Assembly (NCBI GenBank): GCA_902576415.1
Contig: CACGVZ010000008.1
Location: 1-58,883 of the forward strand
Direction: 5' to 3'
DNA length: 58,883 nt
Source: an uncultured Prochlorococcus sp.
Lineage (GTDB): Bacteria > Cyanobacteriota > Cyanobacteriia > PCC-6307 > Cyanobiaceae
Below are positions 38,655-54,992 of the stretch, piece by piece. Below the pieces are notes generated by a model. That model was not told the origin of the DNA. It did no database searches and saw only the letters and a program-made list of their open reading frames with translations. A program made the position numbers and the translations under genes. The stretch's first letter is position 1; the number at the start of each line of letters is the position of its first letter.

Positions 38655-38915
38655 TATGAAAATTAAATTGAAGAAATGAAAATGACTTAAAACAAAAAAT
38701 TATTTGCCAAAGTATTTAACAAAATTTTTTTAGTGATCAGAGGACATTTTTACAATACAACCTAGAACGTTATATATGTATAAATATTTGTTTTATGCAA
38801 TAGAAAAATTATTCATGATATTCAAAAATACTCTTTTAAAACTACATGCTTATTTCAGTCAATAATGTATGATATTTTTAAGGTTTAGGTATCCCTCGGT
38901 TGCTGAGAACCCTTT

Positions 38916-49535: not shown

Positions 49536-50207
49536 TTGTTCATTACCGTTTGCGGACAAAAAGGGGGGGTTGCCAAGACCTGTACAAGTATTCACCTTGC
49601 AAGTGTTTGGCATTCTGAAGGTAAAAAAGTTTGCATAGTCGATGCCGACAAGAATAGATCTGCTTTAGCATACGCATCAAGAGGCAATCTTCCATTTCCA
49701 GTTTTCCCCGTCAGTTCAGCTGCTAAAGCATCAAGATCATCAGAAATTGTAATAACTGATGGCCAGGCTAGCAGTGATCAAGAAGAACTTAAACACTTAG
49801 CGTATGGTTCAGATTTAGTTATCTTACCTACAACTGCAAAAGCAAGATCAGTAGAATTAACTGTTGAACTAGCTAATTTATTAAGCAACTTAAAAGTTAA
49901 CCATGCTGTAGTAATAGTAAAAGTTGATTTTAGACAGCAAAAAGCAGCGCAACAAGCCAAAGCGGCTCTAGAAAATTTTGGTTTATATGTTTTTGATACA
50001 TTTATACCCTTACTCTCAGCATTTGATAAAGCAGAAGCCTCGGGCAATGCTGTATTTGAAGCTGTAGACGATTTAGGCAGATCAGATCCTCGTCGAATGA
50101 CGGGCTGGTCTGCTTATTGTTCAATTGCCTCACAAATTCCATGCCTGATTTCGAAGCCCTCATCCGACACCAACAACTTAAACAACCAACAACCAATCAG
50201 CGCTTAA
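49536..50207 (+). CDS. ParA/MinD-like P-loop ATPase
   Basis: A 223-residue ATPase with the deviant Walker A motif GQKGGVAKT (residues 7-15), the switch-like VDADKNRSALAYASRG and a Walker-B-like region around LVILPTTAKARS. The short length and the lack of a DNA-binding extension put it with orphan ParA proteins that position cellular cargo (carboxysomes, chemoreceptors, plasmids). No parB is adjacent. The start is TTG at 49536, directly before the conserved strand FITVCGQKGG. The 3' end overlaps the next gene by 67 bp. Confidence 0.85.
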   Translation: MFITVCGQKGGVAKTCTSIHLASVWHSEGKKVCIVDADKNRSALAYASRGNLPFPVFPVSSAAKASRSSEIVITDGQASSDQEELKHLAYGSDLVILPTTAKARSVELTVELANLLSNLKVNHAVVIVKVDFRQQKAAQQAKAALENFGLYVFDTFIPLLSAFDKAEASGNAVFEAVDDLGRSDPRRMTGWSAYCSIASQIPCLISKPSSDTNNLNNQQPISA

Positions 50208-50383
50208 AAGTAGTTGATTCTCCTAATTTTGAAGAAGAACAAAAAGAAGAAGCAATAATTAAACAATCTGGATTATTAGTTAATTTTTTTGGAGGTTTTA
50301 TAGGCTCTGTAATTGGAACTTTAACAATACTGTTTCTATATATTAATGAATATCTACCATTAGATTTACTAAAACTTAAGTAG
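50141..50383 (+). CDS. Small membrane-anchored partner of the ParA-like ATPase
   Basis: An 80-residue protein. I use ATG 50141 (MPDFEALIRHQQLKQ) rather than the in-frame upstream ATG. It has a polar, charged N-terminus and one C-terminal transmembrane helix with glycines (LVNFFGGFIGSVIGTLTILFLY). The 67-bp overlap with the ParA-like gene suggests coupled expression; a ParB-like or membrane-tether partner role is an inference. The stop codon lies in copy A of the argJ-end-like repeat. Confidence 0.6.
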   Translation: MPDFEALIRHQQLKQPTTNQRLKVVDSPNFEEEQKEEAIIKQSGLLVNFFGGFIGSVIGTLTILFLYINEYLPLDLLKLK

Positions 50384-50396
50384 TATATTCGCTATT
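50378..50396 (+). repeat. argJ-end-like direct repeat, copy A
   Basis: TTAAGTAGTATATTCGCTA begins here and continues TT. It matches copy B at 52142 with one mismatch over about 20 bases. The copy overlaps the stop codon of the ParA partner gene and marks the left edge of the accessory block. Confidence 0.6.
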
Positions 50397-50439
50397 CATT
50401 GCTATACAATGATAATCACTCAAAATTGACTGCAACAAC

Positions 50440-50456
50440 TGACTTTTTATAAGTCA
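50440..50456 (+). terminator. Hairpin downstream of the ParA-like pair
   Basis: TGACTT and AAGTCA form a six-base stem with loop TTTAT. There is no clear T run, so it may be a weak terminator or only an RNA hairpin. The 200 bases from 50384 to 50584 contain no gene that I can support. Confidence 0.35.
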
Positions 50457-50584
50457 ATACGATTGTAAACAAAGTGTAAGTGGTAATTAAAAAGTGAAAT
50501 ATTGACATGATTTCTTATCAGTATATTTTGTTTCTTATAACTTAAGGTTCTTGAAACACTTAAATTACGCGCAGTTTCAACGTT

Positions 50585-51013
50585 TCAAGGATTAAAGTCT
50601 CTACATTTTGATCTTTCGTTTTCATAATTTTTTATAGCAGTATCCCATTCTGATAAATCTGCTTCTTTACCAGAAATATATAATTCCATTTGTTTCGAAT
50701 AGTTTGCTGATTCAATTCGACTATTGAATGTAGTATTGCAAAAAATTATACTTCCAAATTTTTCATAGTCCGCATAATCTCTATTTGCAGCAAATTCAGC
50801 ATTTCCCCTTAACTTATCTAATGCTTTATATTCCAAATCCTCAATACTAGGTTTTGGACGGAGTAAGAATGCTTTATAGTCCAAATTCTCAATGCTAGGT
50901 TTTGAACGGAGTAAGGATTGATTCGCTTGTGCATTTAGATATGCAAAAAGGCAAACACAAATAAGAACAACAGCAAATACTCTTATTAACCAAGTGTTAG
51001 TTTTATCCATCAT
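50585..51013 (-). CDS. Hypothetical membrane/exported protein with 16-residue tandem repeat
   Basis: A 142-residue protein with one N-terminal hydrophobic segment (LIRVFAVVLICVCLFAYLNA), either a signal anchor or signal peptide. Two copies of a 16-residue unit follow (SKPSIENLDYKAFLLR and PKPSIEDLEYKALDKL). At the DNA level the unit is 48 bp, 50820-50867 and 50868-50915, about 90% identical, so the duplication is fairly recent. A polar C-terminal region contains two cysteines. No family is recognised. It lies in the accessory block. Confidence 0.65.
   Translation of the reverse strand: MMDKTNTWLIRVFAVVLICVCLFAYLNAQANQSLLRSKPSIENLDYKAFLLRPKPSIEDLEYKALDKLRGNAEFAANRDYADYEKFGSIIFCNTTFNSRIESANYSKQMELYISGKEADLSEWDTAIKNYENERSKCRDFNP
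50820..50915 (-). repeat. Two-copy in-frame 48-bp tandem repeat
   Basis: Units 50820-50867 and 50868-50915 differ at only five positions and preserve the reading frame of the enclosing gene. This adds 16 residues (KPSIE[N/D]L[D/E]YKA core). Confidence 0.9.
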
Positions 51014-51037
51014 TATCGTAATTTCGCTCTTTTTCCA

Positions 51038-51331
51038 TTATTTATCTAATACACTTTTTACTTTATCTGAGAATTTTTGTTCTTTATCAGTTCTAGTATT
51101 TACTTTCATTGTTGTATAAATTCTAGGCGCACCTTTTGAATGAATTTTTTTATGGCATTTTTTAACACATTCAAATACTTTATCCCAATCTCCCTCTATT
51201 GCAGTTCCATTCGCTCCTAATTCATAGTTAAGACCTTCATTTTTGATAACTTCAATACACTCTTTTATATAAGGAGATAGGGAAGTTCCTACTCCAATAG
51301 GGACTAAACATAAATCAATACTTACAAACAT
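51038..51331 (-). CDS. Thiamine-binding (DUF77/MTH1187-YkoF) family protein
   Basis: A 97-residue ferredoxin-like-fold protein. It has VSIDLCLVPIGVGTSLSPYI at the N-terminus, YELGANGTAIEGDW in the middle and APRIYTTMKVNTRTD near the end, the three motifs of the MTH1187/YkoF family. Members bind thiamine or its precursors and often accompany thiamine transporters. Here no transporter is adjacent and the gene lies in an accessory block, so its role in vitamin salvage is uncertain. It is 24 bp upstream of the repeat-containing protein gene on the same strand. Confidence 0.82.
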   Translation of the reverse strand: MFVSIDLCLVPIGVGTSLSPYIKECIEVIKNEGLNYELGANGTAIEGDWDKVFECVKKCHKKIHSKGAPRIYTTMKVNTRTDKEQKFSDKVKSVLDK

Positions 51332-51418
51332 AATTACTTCCTATTTTGATAAATCTAACCATTCATATCCTAAATACTAATGTCGATAAAATGTAGCGAA
51401 AAGAATGAGTAAAAGTTT

Positions 51419-51571
51419 ACTAAAAATAAAATAAGAGGGCATTTGTTCGCCCTCTTCGAGTCGTATCCACCTCACTGTCCACAAAGTCGATGAAGTGCTT
51501 TTGACTCCTGAATTATTTCTACTCCTACTGAACGAGAAAAGATAGTCGTGACAACCACAAAGCACTTCTAC
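51419..51571 (-). ncRNA. Predicted small RNA with own promoter and terminator
   Basis: On the minus strand a sigma70-type promoter (TTGACT, 17 bases, TATTAC) precedes about 150 bases ending in a strong terminator. Inside, GAAGTGCTTT and AAAGCACTTC are perfect 10-base complements, giving a long-range helix. A weak 62-codon frame crosses the region but lacks a leader. The 309 bases between the flanking genes otherwise hold nothing. I do not recognise it as a known Yfr family. Confidence 0.55.
51420..51456 (-). terminator. Rho-independent terminator (minus direction)
   Basis: A perfect eight-base stem AAGAGGGC/GCCCTCTT with loop ATTTGTTC on the plus strand. In the minus direction it is followed by ATTTTATTTTTA, a T-rich tail. 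It is the strongest hairpin seen in the accessory block. Confidence 0.8.
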
Positions 51572-51575
51572 TCGG

Positions 51576-51604
51576 GTAATAATACTCTATGAATTTCAAG
51601 TCAA
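51576..51604 (-). promoter_or_regulatory. Predicted sigma70 promoter of the small RNA
   Basis: On the minus strand, TTGACT at 51604-51599 is followed by a 17-base spacer and TATTAC at 51581-51576. A second -10 alternative TATTAT overlaps it. Confidence 0.55.
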
Positions 51605-51640
51605 TAGGAGGACAATATAGATATAGATCTAGGAGGTCTT

Positions 51641-51823
51641 ATGAAACTATTCAATCAATTTAACATTCTTCCAAGATACTTAACTGCATTTAATTATGCA
51701 GGATTAAATCTAAACGAAACTCCAAAAGAACTTGAGAAATGTACCCCTGAGTTTCAAAACTTTTGGGAGAAAGAATGTAGAGAACATCCAACAAATCAAA
51801 ATTGTTTAATTTACTGCGACTGA
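51641..51823 (+). CDS. Small hypothetical protein 1 with strong Shine-Dalgarno
   Basis: A 60-residue soluble protein with four cysteines near the C-terminus (KCTPEF, KECREH, NCLIYCD). The leader AGGAGGTCTTATGAAACT gives an unusually strong ribosome binding site for this genome, and a second AGGAGG lies 25 bases upstream. The leader and the TGCGACT after or at the stop are nearly repeated at the next gene. No family is recognised. It is expected to be highly translated. Confidence 0.65.
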   Translation: MKLFNQFNILPRYLTAFNYAGLNLNETPKELEKCTPEFQNFWEKECREHPTNQNCLIYCD

Positions 51824-51862
51824 GTTATTAATTTTTAGTCATTATTAAAAAAAGGAGGTTTT

Positions 51863-52030
51863 ATGAAACTAACTACTCCATTCACAATTCTCAATCGTAA
51901 ATTCAATAAGATGGATTTAATCAGAGATGCAATGAAGAAAAGAAAATTGGCAACAGAAAGATTGCATGATGACTATAGAAAAATGTTCAAAAACAAAGAG
52001 CATCCAACCATAGTTAATGGATATGTTTAA
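51863..52030 (+). CDS. Small hypothetical protein 2 with strong Shine-Dalgarno
   Basis: A 55-residue basic, helical protein (DLIRDAMKKRKLATERLHDD) ending HPTIVNGYV. The leader AAAGGAGGTTTTATGAAACT is almost the same as that of the preceding gene. The two proteins share only the first residues (MKL) and a loose FxxLxR pattern, so the leaders are more conserved than the products. No family is recognised. Confidence 0.65.
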   Translation: MKLTTPFTILNRKFNKMDLIRDAMKKRKLATERLHDDYRKMFKNKEHPTIVNGYV

Positions 52031-52141
52031 CCTAGTGCGACTAAATTAAATTAGTAATAATAAGTCCTAATTTAATGTAAGCAGACCGTAAGCAACATAT
52101 TAATAATCTTCAAATCAATTAATATGACTACGTTTTAGGGT

Positions 52142-52169
52142 TAAGTTGTATATTCGCTATTAATTTCCA
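52142..52169 (+). repeat. argJ-end-like direct repeat, copy B
   Basis: Contains TTGTATATTCGCTATTAATT followed by TCCAC. It is similar to the 3' end of argJ (copy C) with five differences in about 28 bases, and to copy A with one mismatch over about 20. It separates the two accessory cassettes. Confidence 0.65.
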
Positions 52170-52236
52170 CCTTTGGCATTTAGTATATCCACCTTGCTGT
52201 AATAGATTGCTATCACTAGGGTGAATTTTTATAAAA

Positions 52237-52357
52237 TAATCACAACATAATCACAGTCGGCAAAATAATAATCACAGTTTTAGTTTTTTAAACAAAAACC
52301 ACTGAAATAATTAGGATTAATTTCTGTGATCTTTGGAGTAATCACAAAATAATCACA
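52237..52357 (+). promoter_or_regulatory. TAATCACA boxes spaced 11 bp apart
   Basis: Exact TAATCACA occurs at 52237, 52248, 52269, 52339 and 52350. Two pairs are 11 bp apart and one step is 21 bp, so the boxes lie on one face of the helix. An eight-base box with a three-base gap is the layout of PhoB/OmpR-type direct-repeat sites, but the box sequence differs from the usual Pho box. Confidence 0.6.
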
Positions 52358-52483
52358 TTTATACCAAAGGTGAGTATTCAAAATTAAAGGGGGGATGGGA
52401 ATTTCCTACTTCTCTAGAAAAGAAACAAAACATAGCATTTATAAAAATTTCTAGGAAACTAATAAATAACCAGTTCCAATGCA

Positions 52484-53650
52484 ATGAAAAAATTACTCGC
52501 ATTTTCATTACTTAGTTCTTCCATATTTCTCAGTGCTAATTCGGTAAAAGCAGATTGGGATTATTGGGTTATCAAGAAGGATGATGCAACAAGACACAAT
52601 TTGCACAAATTTTATACTTATGACACTAGTAGTGGGACAGAAACCTTTAGAACTTCTTTTTGTGAAGAAGAAATTCAAACTCTCCCAAACGGTACTGAAG
52701 TTGAAACATGCAACGTTCAAAAAATTAGTTTTAATGAAGATACTGGCCAACCAGTAGTGGAGTCATTACAAGACTATTCCTATGATCTAAGTAATGATTC
52801 TTGGACAGGTAAAACTAGAAATAGTGGGGGTTCAGGTAATACTACATGGAAGGATTCTTATGATTATGTATTTGCAATGCCAAAAATAACTAGTTCCTCG
52901 GATGGAACAATTAAGATTGGGTCAACAAATAACACATTAATTAAAAGAGAATCCAATGGAGAAATACACATTGGTAAAAACTCTTTAATAACTCCAGAAG
53001 AACATTCAACTCTTAGTGATGGTAGTAAAGTTCAACATTTATGGGCAGAAGATGAAAATGACAATAAGATTCCTATTAACATATACGGCAGTAAACTTTT
53101 AATTGATGGAGTAGAAGTAACAGCAGGAGATAGCGCACAAGTAACAACAAACAAAAATAATATTTCTACTAATACTTCCAATATCAAAAATCTCGGAGAA
53201 GGTGTAGCAGGTTCAACGGCACTTACAGCAGCATTAACCGCACTTCCTCAGACATCAAAAGAATCTAAACTAAGTTGTGGAGTTGGTACTGGTGCTTATA
53301 GCAATAAGTATGCTTTAGGTTTTGGTTGTGCCTCTAAAGTAAACGAAAGAGTTGATATAAATGCTGGAGGATCATATGTTTTTGGAGGTTCTAAATCTTA
53401 TGGAGAAGGCACTTTAGAAAGTGGTGTTATAAAAGCAGGATTTGTTTTTAAACTAGGTGAATTAAAAAAATCAACTCAAATCAGTATGAAAGAAAAAGAT
53501 GAATTGAAGCAAGAAATAAGTGATCTAAAAGCAAACAATATAAACATTATTTCTCAAAATAAAGCACTTTTAGCAAGACTAGAGCGACTAGAAAAAGTAG
53601 CACTAGGTGAGTCTAAATCAAAAGATTTAGCAACTATAAAACTACCCTAA
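52484..53650 (+). CDS. YadA-like (trimeric autotransporter-type) surface protein
   Basis: A 388-residue exported protein with signal peptide MKKLLAFSLLSSSIFLSANSV. It has a beta-rich passenger (about residues 25-215), a short heptad-like stalk (VTTNKNNISTNTSNIKNLGE) and a YadA-type anchor (about residues 245-325). The anchor carries STALTAALTALPQ and alternating GVGTGAYSNKYALGFG and ISAG-like strands. Unlike classical YadA, a coiled coil (ELKQEISDLKANN to LARLERLEKV) follows the anchor. Adhesion or surface exposure is the likely role. It is the only gene of accessory cassette 2. Confidence 0.7.
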   Translation: MKKLLAFSLLSSSIFLSANSVKADWDYWVIKKDDATRHNLHKFYTYDTSSGTETFRTSFCEEEIQTLPNGTEVETCNVQKISFNEDTGQPVVESLQDYSYDLSNDSWTGKTRNSGGSGNTTWKDSYDYVFAMPKITSSSDGTIKIGSTNNTLIKRESNGEIHIGKNSLITPEEHSTLSDGSKVQHLWAEDENDNKIPINIYGSKLLIDGVEVTAGDSAQVTTNKNNISTNTSNIKNLGEGVAGSTALTAALTALPQTSKESKLSCGVGTGAYSNKYALGFGCASKVNERVDINAGGSYVFGGSKSYGEGTLESGVIKAGFVFKLGELKKSTQISMKEKDELKQEISDLKANNINIISQNKALLARLERLEKVALGESKSKDLATIKLP

Positions 53651-53664
53651 TTAAGAAGAAATAA

Positions 53665-53683
53665 TAATCACAGTATTATCACA
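53665..53683 (+). repeat. TAATCACA/TTATCACA pair, 11 bp apart, after the YadA-like gene
   Basis: TAATCACA at 53665 and TTATCACA at 53676 repeat the box pattern found upstream of the gene. TCACAGTCGCAAAAG and AGGTGCGTATTC follow, resembling 52251-52265 and 52368-52379. The YadA-like gene is thus flanked by related direct repeats about 1.4 kb apart. Confidence 0.6.
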
Positions 53684-53731
53684 GTCGCAAAAGGTGCGTA
53701 TTCTTTTAGAGATTTTTTATTGTGATATCAA

Positions 53732-53753
53732 GTGATCCTAAAGATCACATTTT
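53732..53753 (+). terminator. Hairpin after the YadA-like gene
   Basis: GTGATC and GATCAC form a six-base stem with loop CTAAA, followed by ATTTTC. This is a weak terminator candidate. It lies just before the argJ stop on the opposite strand. Confidence 0.4.
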
Positions 53754-54992
53754 CTACGTCGTATACTCGCTATTGATTTCAACATATTTTTTAGAAAGAT
53801 CGCACCCCCAAGCTGTGCCTTTCGATTCGCCAGAATTTAGATTAAGCATAATTTTTACAATATCATCTACCAAATATCTACCTTTCATTCTGGACTTAAT
53901 ATAGTCTGTGACTTTTTGTGGATCATATTCATTTAACTTGCCTTTTTCCAAAATGTGAGCGTTTCCTATATACAAGTCAACGTCATCTAAATTAAATTTA
54001 ACTCCAGAATTACCTGCAGCAGAAATGATTCGTCCCCAATTTGGATCACAACCATGTATCGCAGTTTTTACCAAGGCAGAATTACAAATAGATTTCGCGA
54101 GCATAATGGCATCATCTGTATTTTTTGCTCCTTGAACCAAAACTTCTAATAAACAATTGGCTCCCTCTCCATCCCTTGCAATATTTTTTGCCAAGTTCTG
54201 ACATACAATATCAATCCCTTGTTGGATAATTGGAAAAAACCTTTTTTCAATTTTCTCTCCTGCATTTATTCCAACAAAAGAATCATTTGTGCTTGTCTCT
54301 CCATCAACTGATATTGCATTAAAAGATTTTTGAACCGCAATAGCAATCATTTTATCCCATTCTTCTTTTTGAATGCCCGCATCACAGGTTAGGAAAGCAA
54401 GCATTGTAGCCATGTTGGGGTAAATCATTCCAGAACCTTTTGCAAATCCTGCTATTTTTATTTTTCTACCTTGAATAATCGTCTCTATTGACACTTTTTT
54501 CAAAGTCAAATCAGTAGTTAAAATTGCTTCTGCTGCATTTTCAAAATTATTACCCTTTAAATCACTAACTAAATTCGGTAAATTTTTTACTAAATCATTT
54601 ATTTGTATTGGAACACCAATTACACCAGTTGAGCACATTAAAACTTCTTCTTCTTTTATTCCTAAAAGTTCCGCAATCTTTCCTGTAGCAATTTGAAAAT
54701 GTTGAATACCAAGATTTCCTGTACATGCATTTGCTTGACCAGAATTAATTAGTATTGCTCTGACCAAACCTGAAGTTGTTTTAATCCTTTCCTCACAAAT
54801 ATCCACACAAGAAGCTCGAACTATTGATTGGGTAAACATCCCACTAAAAATACTTCCTTCAGGAGCGAGTATTAGTGCTAAATCTTTTTTATTAGAAGCT
54901 TTTAAACCAGCAGATATCCCAGCAAAAAGAAACCCCTTGGGTGTCACCTTACTGTCATCAACAAACGACCAATTGGAATCTAACTGGCTCAA
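53754..54992 (-). CDS. argJ: Glutamate N-acetyltransferase / amino-acid acetyltransferase (ArgJ)
   Basis: ArgJ transfers acetyl groups from N-acetylornithine to glutamate in the cyclic arginine pathway. The 412-residue precursor has the autocleavage site in MATMLAFLTCDAG; the Thr becomes the N-terminal nucleophile of the beta subunit. IQINDLVKNL and DPNWGRIISAAGNSGV are also typical. Its last nine codons form copy C of the island repeat. argJ, coaE, gatB, thiO-like and ndk look like ancestral neighbours. Confidence 0.96.
   Translation of the reverse strand: MSQLDSNWSFVDDSKVTPKGFLFAGISAGLKASNKKDLALILAPEGSIFSGMFTQSIVRASCVDICEERIKTTSGLVRAILINSGQANACTGNLGIQHFQIATGKIAELLGIKEEEVLMCSTGVIGVPIQINDLVKNLPNLVSDLKGNNFENAAEAILTTDLTLKKVSIETIIQGRKIKIAGFAKGSGMIYPNMATMLAFLTCDAGIQKEEWDKMIAIAVQKSFNAISVDGETSTNDSFVGINAGEKIEKRFFPIIQQGIDIVCQNLAKNIARDGEGANCLLEVLVQGAKNTDDAIMLAKSICNSALVKTAIHGCDPNWGRIISAAGNSGVKFNLDDVDLYIGNAHILEKGKLNEYDPQKVTDYIKSRMKGRYLVDDIVKIMLNLNSGESKGTAWGCDLSKKYVEINSEYTT
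53756..53783 (+). repeat. Direct repeat copy C (3' end of argJ)
   Basis: ACGTCGTATACTCGCTATTG continues ATTTCAAC and lies inside the argJ coding end. It is the presumed source of copies A and B and marks the right edge of the accessory block. Confidence 0.65.

Follow-up and report, generated by a model that had tools for sequence, protein, structure and literature searches.

We examined a 58,883-nucleotide stretch of DNA from an uncultured Prochlorococcus sp. (hereafter the window; contig CACGVZ010000008.1), in which two small cassettes of accessory genes lie directly behind argJ, bounded by copies of the 3' end of that gene. The entire analysis consists of sequence comparison. argJ itself, an open reading frame (ORF) of 412 amino acids (aa), occupies 53754..54992 on the minus strand, and its last six codons and stop make up the putative attachment (att) site. 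The conserved flank on the far side is formed by a ParA-type ATPase gene (49536..50207, plus strand; CbiA, PF01656, E 4.7e-13) and an 88-aa partner gene of parA (50117..50383, plus strand). The argJ-proximal cassette 1 (52162..53774, minus strand; 1,613 bp) encodes a 388-aa protein with a YadA-like membrane anchor (52484..53650, plus strand; PF03895, E 2e-8). The partner-proximal cassette 2 (50397..52161, minus strand; 1,765 bp) carries a 55-aa ORF that recurs in several relatives (51863..52030, plus strand), a 60-aa ORF that is 98-100% identical in 8 relatives (51641..51823, plus strand), a 97-aa thiamine-binding-family protein (51038..51331, minus strand; PF01910, E 5.6e-35) and a 142-aa ORF (50585..51013, minus strand). 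The ORF list and Pfam scan gave no Pfam match for the 55-, 60- and 142-aa ORFs, and neither a tyrosine recombinase ORF nor a large serine recombinase (Ccr) in the two window cassettes. A sequence-only reading of this DNA had seen nothing but accessory genes between the argJ-end copies, and this gene content agrees with it. The 142-aa ORF also contains an internal 48-bp tandem duplication (50820-50915, 92% identical) that adds 16 residues.

The same reading had placed the three copies at about 50,378, 52,142 and 53,756, and a repeat search recovered each of them within 2 bp, with copy A at 50376-50400, copy B at 52141-52165 (92% identical to A) and copy C at 53754-53778 (80% identical to A). 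As it had described, C is the end of argJ, B is noncoding and A spans a stop codon, which is that of the 88-aa ORF. On the argJ strand all three read NSEYTT-stop and differ only synonymously. The 14-bp att core, which corresponds to the argJ codons N-S-E-Y-T, reads AATAGCGAATATAC in copy B (52148..52161, minus strand), between the cassettes, and AATAGCGAGTATAC in copy C (53761..53774, minus strand), the attL at the argJ/cassette 1 junction, as defined by repeat search and site comparison; copy A (50383..50396, minus strand) is the attR, where cassette 2 joins the host gene beside parA and the core overlaps the stop codon of that gene. Copy C has one mismatch to the 14-mer that had been quoted originally. 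The 14-mer GTATAYTCGCTATT has exactly three exact matches in the window's draft genome (1,292,573 bases in 50 contigs, 77% complete), namely the three copies, and none elsewhere; at the level of two mismatches, 15 further matches were among those listed, compared with 14 for a backward control pattern. The mutual match of the flanks of the three copies ends about 21-25 bp out, which fits att sites. What had been taken for one block, bounded and divided by the repeats, does have the three copies, but it is better described as two separate cassettes with different arm repeats than as one divided element.

Named genome contigs were scanned with argJ, and the best 80 of 451 stretches, together with the window, gave 81 loci, which we designate by L numbers. 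The sample is biased to close relatives, since only the most similar stretches were kept; their argJ genes are 94-99% identical, and the nearest argJ in the genome collection, that of isolate AG-892-G09, shows 99% protein identity. With a site counted as empty if the parA-side gene begins at most 60 bp from the argJ stop, 37 of the 81 loci are empty, with the parA partner abutting argJ and a single copy of the repeat; 41 are occupied, and 3 have no partner gene on the contig. When the outer flanks of the window array are joined, the resulting 134 bp match AG-347-M23 (L008), where the site is empty, without a single mismatch, and the ten others among the 11 empty sites compared (of 37) show 2-6 differences. 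In six of the 37 empty sites (L007, L017, L024, L032, L039 and L074) the serine codon is TCN instead of AGY. TCN is also found at three occupied argJ ends (L009, L046 and L068), so the change seems not to prevent insertion.

The inserts at the occupied loci range from 141 to 9,039 bp. Counting cores with up to two mismatches, a count that misses cores with a TCN serine codon, 24 of the 41 have two, nine have three, one has four and seven have only one. The pattern for the full 21-bp site, AATAGYGARTAYACNACNTRR, counted genome-wide, occurs in 209 of 266 genomes of the genus and its backward control in 0; by hand count, 78 of the 266 have at least two matches, and one (G199) has five. At the sites classified in the loci, the flanks are exchanged as integration would require: the argJ-side flank is present at 35/37 attB, 44/44 attL, 0/16 internal and 0/32 attR copies, and the host far flank at 37/37 attB, 31/32 attR, 1/44 attL and 0/16 internal copies, which is the pattern expected of attB, attL and attR sites. 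The glutamate codon is GAG at 10/44 attL compared with 0/37 attB, so this codon was probably brought by the element, and a host TCG serine variant is kept at 3/44 argJ ends. Together, these place the apparent exchange point between the serine and glutamate codons. NSEYTT-stop is kept in 44/44 attL, 13/16 internal and 21/32 attR copies, as if only the copy that completes argJ were held by selection. The idea that the copies are chance repeats in AT-rich DNA, or leftovers of an argJ duplication, can be set aside and has next to no credence with us, given that the draft genome holds no other match with fewer than two mismatches, that upstream of the core the argJ flank is continued in none of the 16 internal and 32 attR copies, and that empty sites exist. 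In one genome (G042; L159 and L160), argJ and the parA partner lie about 20 kb apart, one core copy is on the opposite strand and thiamine-binding cassette genes are split between the two places, probably as a result of a rearrangement with its breakpoint inside an array.

The cassettes themselves are highly diverse. Defined as more than 200 bp between neighbouring cores, they were collected from 53 loci drawn from the 80-locus set, the window and 20 stretches from other genomes picked mainly for having several copies. By whole-cassette DNA similarity, the 76 cassettes fall into 67 types. Both the empty sites and this differing cargo between the copies had been named beforehand as tests of serial site-specific insertion at the argJ 3' end, and both support it; the opposite outcome, with the same copies and cargo in all relatives and no empty site, or with matches no better than chance, did not come up. 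The 77 inserts (including that of L052) encode 129 ORFs with a length of 80 aa or more, which group into 70 clusters. The YadA-anchor type of 52484-53650 belongs to the largest cluster (26 members); the cluster of this 388-aa protein is present in 16 occupied loci. A Pfam scan of 72 cargo representatives gave, among the first 25 of 74 families listed, cytosine methylases (3), TPR proteins (3) and resolvases (2), with single cases of HaeII-, TdeIII- and Mrr-type restriction enzymes, HNH, Z1, a DnaB-type helicase, Clp protease and the thiamine-binding, PBP and BtuR families. In PADLOC, the first 25 of 120 families listed were methyltransferase models. There are also mini-cassettes of 185-274 bp with no evident gene (L172 3299-3484, L009, L038 and a 274-bp cassette of L064). 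The one in L172 has just the two ends, left and right, in common with window cassette 1, and in this it is like a miniature inverted-repeat transposable element of the argJ system.

At many cassette ends the core is flanked on either side by class-specific pairs of short repeats with an 11-bp spacing, and these look like the arm sites of lambda-type integrases. In cassette 1 there are eight TGTGAT repeats, all on the minus strand: one 11 bp from the copy C core (53744..53749), a pair 77 and 88 bp from it (53667..53683), three at 83, 94 and 115 bp from copy B (52239..52276) and two more at 185 and 196 bp (52341..52357). All were located by offset scan, and the 77/88 and 83/94/115 groups also by repeat search. 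Among 16 cassettes with at least five TGTGAT repeats at their ends, the left offsets 11/77/88 recur in 9 and the right offsets 83/94/115 in 11, and most such cassettes have a further pair near 185/196. Other arm classes are quite different in their letters, with offsets of about 55/66 and 64/75/125/136. Cassette 2 has a left pair of the TTGCTTAC type (TGCTTAC twice, 11 bp apart; 52077..52094, minus strand) and is without the right-end copies kept in L018; reading the sequence, we find one remaining right arm-like repeat, TGTTTAC, 75 bp from copy A (50465..50471, minus strand).

Sharing of 8-mers between the two ends of the same cassette, in 48 cassettes, exceeded all 20,000 permutations, although the internal-stretch control for 8-mers (mean 4.9 in 37 cassettes, versus 5.9) is confounded by repeats of coding genes. 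We then defined eight arm classes, after seeing the data, and held them fixed in the shuffles: the same class is present at both ends of 44 of 74 cassettes and of 0 of 61 internal control stretches, whereas 1000 shuffles gave 10.2 cassettes on average and never more than 23. Some cassettes (for example L016, L053 and L062) have a different class at each end, and these look like fusions of two cassettes after loss of the site between them.

Integrases were found at the same site in relatives. A 6.5-kb cassette of AG-449-P16 (L064) encodes a 468-aa relative of the tyrosine recombinases, which we call IntArgJ and which starts about 140 bp after argJ, together with a ParB-N/N6-methylase protein and a serine resolvase; the serine recombinases beside IntArgJ measure only 179 and 238 aa. 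The L064, L158 and L052 inserts all carry a tyrosine recombinase. Within the genus, 10 of 266 genomes have an IntArgJ match, with strong matches in only two, the L064 genome itself and G109 (58%), where IntArgJ lies about 180 bp behind argJ and is followed by another core and a TGTGAT cassette. Within the family, 19 of 201 genomes match, strongly G333 (two copies, 50% and 41%) and G490 (47%), which belong to other genera. In both, 123-127 bp separate argJ from the start of the first IntArgJ copy, and a repeat of the argJ end (NADYTT-stop) with synonymous changes lies 6.0 and 6.6 kb downstream; the second integrase copy of G333 comes after this repeated end. At the level of the class, 4 of 242 genomes match at E <= 1e-20, all from the same family. 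A strong match sits at argJ in 4/4 genomes, that of the query included. Four of the IntArgJ elements have 6-7 TGTGATH repeats at their ends, compared with 0.3-0.5 in shuffles, and in the elements from other genera the TGTGATH distances are close to those of window cassette 1. Beside the second G333 integrase we read by eye TGCGACTA arms at nearly the same left offsets (11, 76 and 87), as expected if arms and integrase diverge together. A distant second integrase of 527 aa, Int52, is located at the far end of the 9-kb L052 insert; 5 of 266 genus genomes match it, strongly only its own, and the weak matches include the two IntArgJ genomes of the genus. The ends of the L052 insert have TTGTTCAC/TTGCTCAC-like repeats, near the TTGCTTAC class, and from this resemblance Int52 perhaps pairs with the TTGCTTAC/TTGTTCAC class to which window cassette 2 belongs. 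The earlier observation that no integrase is visible is thus borne out by the window and by almost every cassette examined, but relatives have integrase-bearing elements at the same site, and the cassettes therefore look non-autonomous rather than merely decayed.

Other tyrosine recombinases were seen away from the argJ site. A related protein of about 500 aa is encoded about 11 kb upstream of argJ in L161 (1811-5062; genome G144) and in G054 (C1:75313-76536), possibly as part of another element family with a different target; in G144 it adjoins ParB-like and alaS-like ORFs, which were named by eye. In 10 of 31 loci scanned (L118, L119, L121-L127 and L132), a separate 321-351-aa tyrosine recombinase lies no more than about 1 kb from a tRNA-Tyr/tRNA-Thr pair and presumably marks a tRNA-site element. 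In the window's own genome (G000), three of four tyrosine-recombinase matches are on contig C10 (9857, 47184 and 49992), which suggests a mobile island there.

We assign IntArgJ to the tyrosine-recombinase family by profile comparison and predicted fold. The L064 protein falls below the Pfam cut-offs (PF00589, 17.2 bits with a cut-off of 27.1; PF13102, 21.7 bits with a cut-off of 22.3) and Int52 passes (28.6 bits); an iterated profile links both to Prochlorococcus recombinases that clearly pass Pfam. A 19-sequence alignment searched against PDB profiles matched 3nkh (1.9e-13), the Int protein 6en0 (9.2e-13) and XerA (1.7e-11). The structure predicted from this alignment had a mean predicted local distance difference test (pLDDT) score of 74, compared with 41 for the first model, and Foldseek (1z1b, E 2.2e-7) matched it to lambda integrase, XerA, IntI4, Tn1549 Int and Cre, with TM-scores of only 0.3-0.5 and large root-mean-square deviations. 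We assigned residues by our own reading against the canonical set, R-K-H-R-H/W-Y with HxxR and Gly-His/Trp motifs. All five IntArgJ-type sequences retain Arg268, Lys305, Arg394 and Tyr426 but have Tyr391 and Thr417 at the two His positions. The approximately 500-aa relatives at other places share most of the IntArgJ departures from the catalytic set, and this speaks against simple decay.

A rival reading is that the cassettes are integron-like, recognised as folded single-stranded attC sites. Tandem cassettes of one to a few genes with no recombinase of their own, beside a shared insertion point, would suit such a system. The fold is of no help in choosing, as the IntArgJ matches include the integron integrase IntI4 together with XerA, Cre, lambda Int and Tn1549 Int. 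The DNA argues the other way: on average, left ends fold no better than shuffles (mean z -0.29, n=44; internal 0.09, n=16), and what stays constant is a linear core of 14 bp accompanied by direct arm repeats. We therefore consider integron-like recognition very improbable.

Comparison with close relatives indicates how the arrays change. In L005, argJ DNA is 99.6% and cassette 2 is 99.3% identical to the window, and cassette 1 has no match, a contrast consistent with gain or exchange beside argJ. Across the array the identity between the two falls in a step, being 99.7% next to argJ and 96.7% next to parA, which suggests that homologous recombination of the flanks probably contributes. This step is what a recombination breakpoint would give, and strong matches to the argJ integrases are absent from most genomes searched; both would fit an explanation in which the arrays are moved mainly by homologous recombination through the argJ and parA flanks and the repeats are old relics, with no integrase active today. 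We think this unlikely because cassettes of as many as 67 DNA types have exact att junctions, three genera have integrase elements at argJ with argJ-end repeats at their borders, and a fixed spacing of arm repeats is kept in many cassettes. Somewhat less doubtful, though still improbable, is that both window cassettes are dead remnants, once mobile and now fixed. The window's own genome, 77% complete, has yielded no match to an argJ integrase, cassette 2 is without the right-end repeats kept by L018, and core copies away from argJ do decay, as the 21 of 32 attR copies with NSEYTT show. Set against these are the eight TGTGAT repeats of cassette 1 at offsets common to its relatives, the intact state of all three cores, and the different argJ-proximal cassette of so close a relative as L005.

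Taken together, it is very probable that the argJ 3' end is the attB of a family of site-specific integrative elements, into which non-autonomous cassettes are inserted by integrases acting in trans. The att anatomy, the empty sites, the diversity of cassettes, the arm repeats and the presence of integrase relatives with TGTGAT arms at argJ in three genera are what this reading builds on; from them we infer integrase activity and action in trans, a circular intermediate, the direction in which arrays grow and a route between cells. In the proposed mechanism, tyrosine integrases would recombine the 14-bp argJ core with an identical core carried by a circular element, the last codons of the element would replace the argJ end so that argJ stays intact, and a second core copy would mark the far edge. 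Most elements would be integrase-less cassettes of about 0.2-7.7 kb that hold a few accessory genes, and integrase-bearing elements at the same site would supply the enzyme in trans. The arm repeats at cassette ends would match a given integrase, as TGTGAT (window cassette 1) may match IntArgJ, and repeated insertion would build tandem arrays. We give an even chance to a more far-reaching version, in which argJ is a shared port and dozens of integrase-less cassettes with attP-like ends are circulated by rare helpers of at least two integrase families, the arms having diversified with the integrases and the core being fixed by the argJ codons.

Several observations weigh against this interpretation. 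Strong IntArgJ matches are rare (2/266 genus genomes), and no argJ integrase match was found in the window's own 77%-complete draft genome; many genomes are incomplete, and absence from any one of them is weak evidence. IntArgJ has Tyr391 at the position of the HxxR histidine and Thr417 at the second His/Trp position, and its activity is accordingly not certain. Thirty of the 74 cassettes are not assigned to one arm class at both ends, some of them hybrids, and the classes TATAACAC, TACCACTA, AAAACACT, TATGACAC and AGTGYGATC have no assigned integrase. The L064 and L158 IntArgJ elements use other, longer arm distances than window cassette 1, and most TGTGAT cassettes carry related YadA-type genes, so common ancestry may account for part of the agreement in offsets. 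Cargo is shared across clades to a limited extent, as in a genome whose argJ is 85% identical and whose thiamine-binding protein is 97% identical to that of cassette 2; in general, same-type cassettes were more alike than argJ in just 1 of 6 DNA pairs and 9 of 76 protein pairs, so this mostly uninformative comparison shows recent transfer in few cases only. Finally, no carrier was found: neither the site pattern nor IntArgJ had a relevant match in viral_contigs, where small elements may be under-represented, and IntArgJ had none in the phage and plasmid collections. The site pattern ending in TDA gave three IMG/VR records, all within unrelated ORFs and with no PF00589 match, and the pattern ending in TRR, which covers the TAG stop as in copy C, gave one, L115 again. 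In the IntArgJ search of viral_contigs, 131 stretches fit one of two peptide patterns, and none is a relative.

Prochlorococcus, the ocean's most abundant photosynthetic cell, combines a tiny genome with a huge pool of accessory genes. How these genes move is an open question, for which the argJ locus offers a docking site, a candidate enzyme, recognisable ends and a census marker. Surface proteins, restriction-modification systems and other accessory genes appear here as interchangeable cassettes behind one housekeeping gene, and it becomes possible to test whether many integrase-less cassettes are mobilised by rare helpers. If the shared-port version is true, the system would be to lambda-type integrases what the integron is to its own, except that the population, not the individual cell, would own the recombinase. 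The pairing of arms with integrases may also provide a natural collection of distinct integration systems that use one chromosomal site.

Known systems share parts of this arrangement. Cis-mobilizable elements (CIMEs), considered together with accretion at the sites of integrative and conjugative or integrative and mobilizable elements, have flanking att sites and no integrase of their own, and accrete in tandem beside integrase-bearing elements. The argJ cassettes are alike in all of this, with att sites that duplicate a gene end, empty sites in relatives, no integrase of their own and integrase-bearing elements at the same site elsewhere, and they have in addition, as in lambda-type systems, apparent arm-type repeats on both sides of the core. 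In contrast to CIMEs, they are much more numerous than the integrase-bearing elements found, often measure 1-2 kb and present several arm classes on one attB. Integron gene cassettes form arrays of small cassettes with the recombinase elsewhere; at argJ we found no attC-like folding and no recombinase as a stable neighbour, and the core is argJ itself. The staphylococcal cassette chromosome (SCC) inserts at the 3' end of rlmH/orfX and forms composite arrays with some members that lack a recombinase. It resembles the argJ system in its protein-gene target and composite arrays and differs in its large serine recombinases and its size of tens of kb.

Within the same genus, tycheposons have reportedly been described by Hackl (2023). 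A published summary gives them as 4-200-kb elements bordered by tRNA genes (PMC10872708). They share with the argJ elements the tyrosine recombinase and accessory cargo; the argJ cassettes differ from the elements so summarised in having a protein-gene target, in being mostly smaller than 4 kb and in mostly lacking a recombinase. The two window cassettes target argJ and have no tyrosine recombinase, and the only tRNA or transfer-messenger RNA (tmRNA) genes of the window are at 38915 and 47830. The additive flexible genomic islands of Methylophilaceae, from a streamlined aquatic bacterium, range from 330 bp to 42 kb and have repeats of the last 20 nt of tRNA-Lys at their ends (PMC10872708). They are alike in their repeated gene-end copies at variable islands and differ in the tRNA target, and the parts of that account available to us assign no integrase or arm sites (PMC10872708). 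The ssrA islands of Dehalococcoides come closest in layout, as they form tandem arrays behind a single conserved gene, at its 3' end, with repeats of the gene end as the borders of each island, and 15 of 31 lack an integration module and are discussed as possible cis-mobilizable elements (PMC3146451). They thus match the argJ arrays in tandem gene-end elements with integrase-less members, and differ in the tmRNA gene target, the proposed CcrB-type serine recombinase and, as far as the portions consulted go, the lack of a comparable arm-repeat system (PMC3146451). The literature searched, which left out most subscription journals so that a prior description is possible, yielded no paper with a title on insertion at argJ. 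Tandem integrase-less elements at the 3' end of a gene are thus known already; what appears to be new at argJ is the protein-gene target, the very small size of the cassettes, the several arm classes on one core and the rarity of the presumed helpers.

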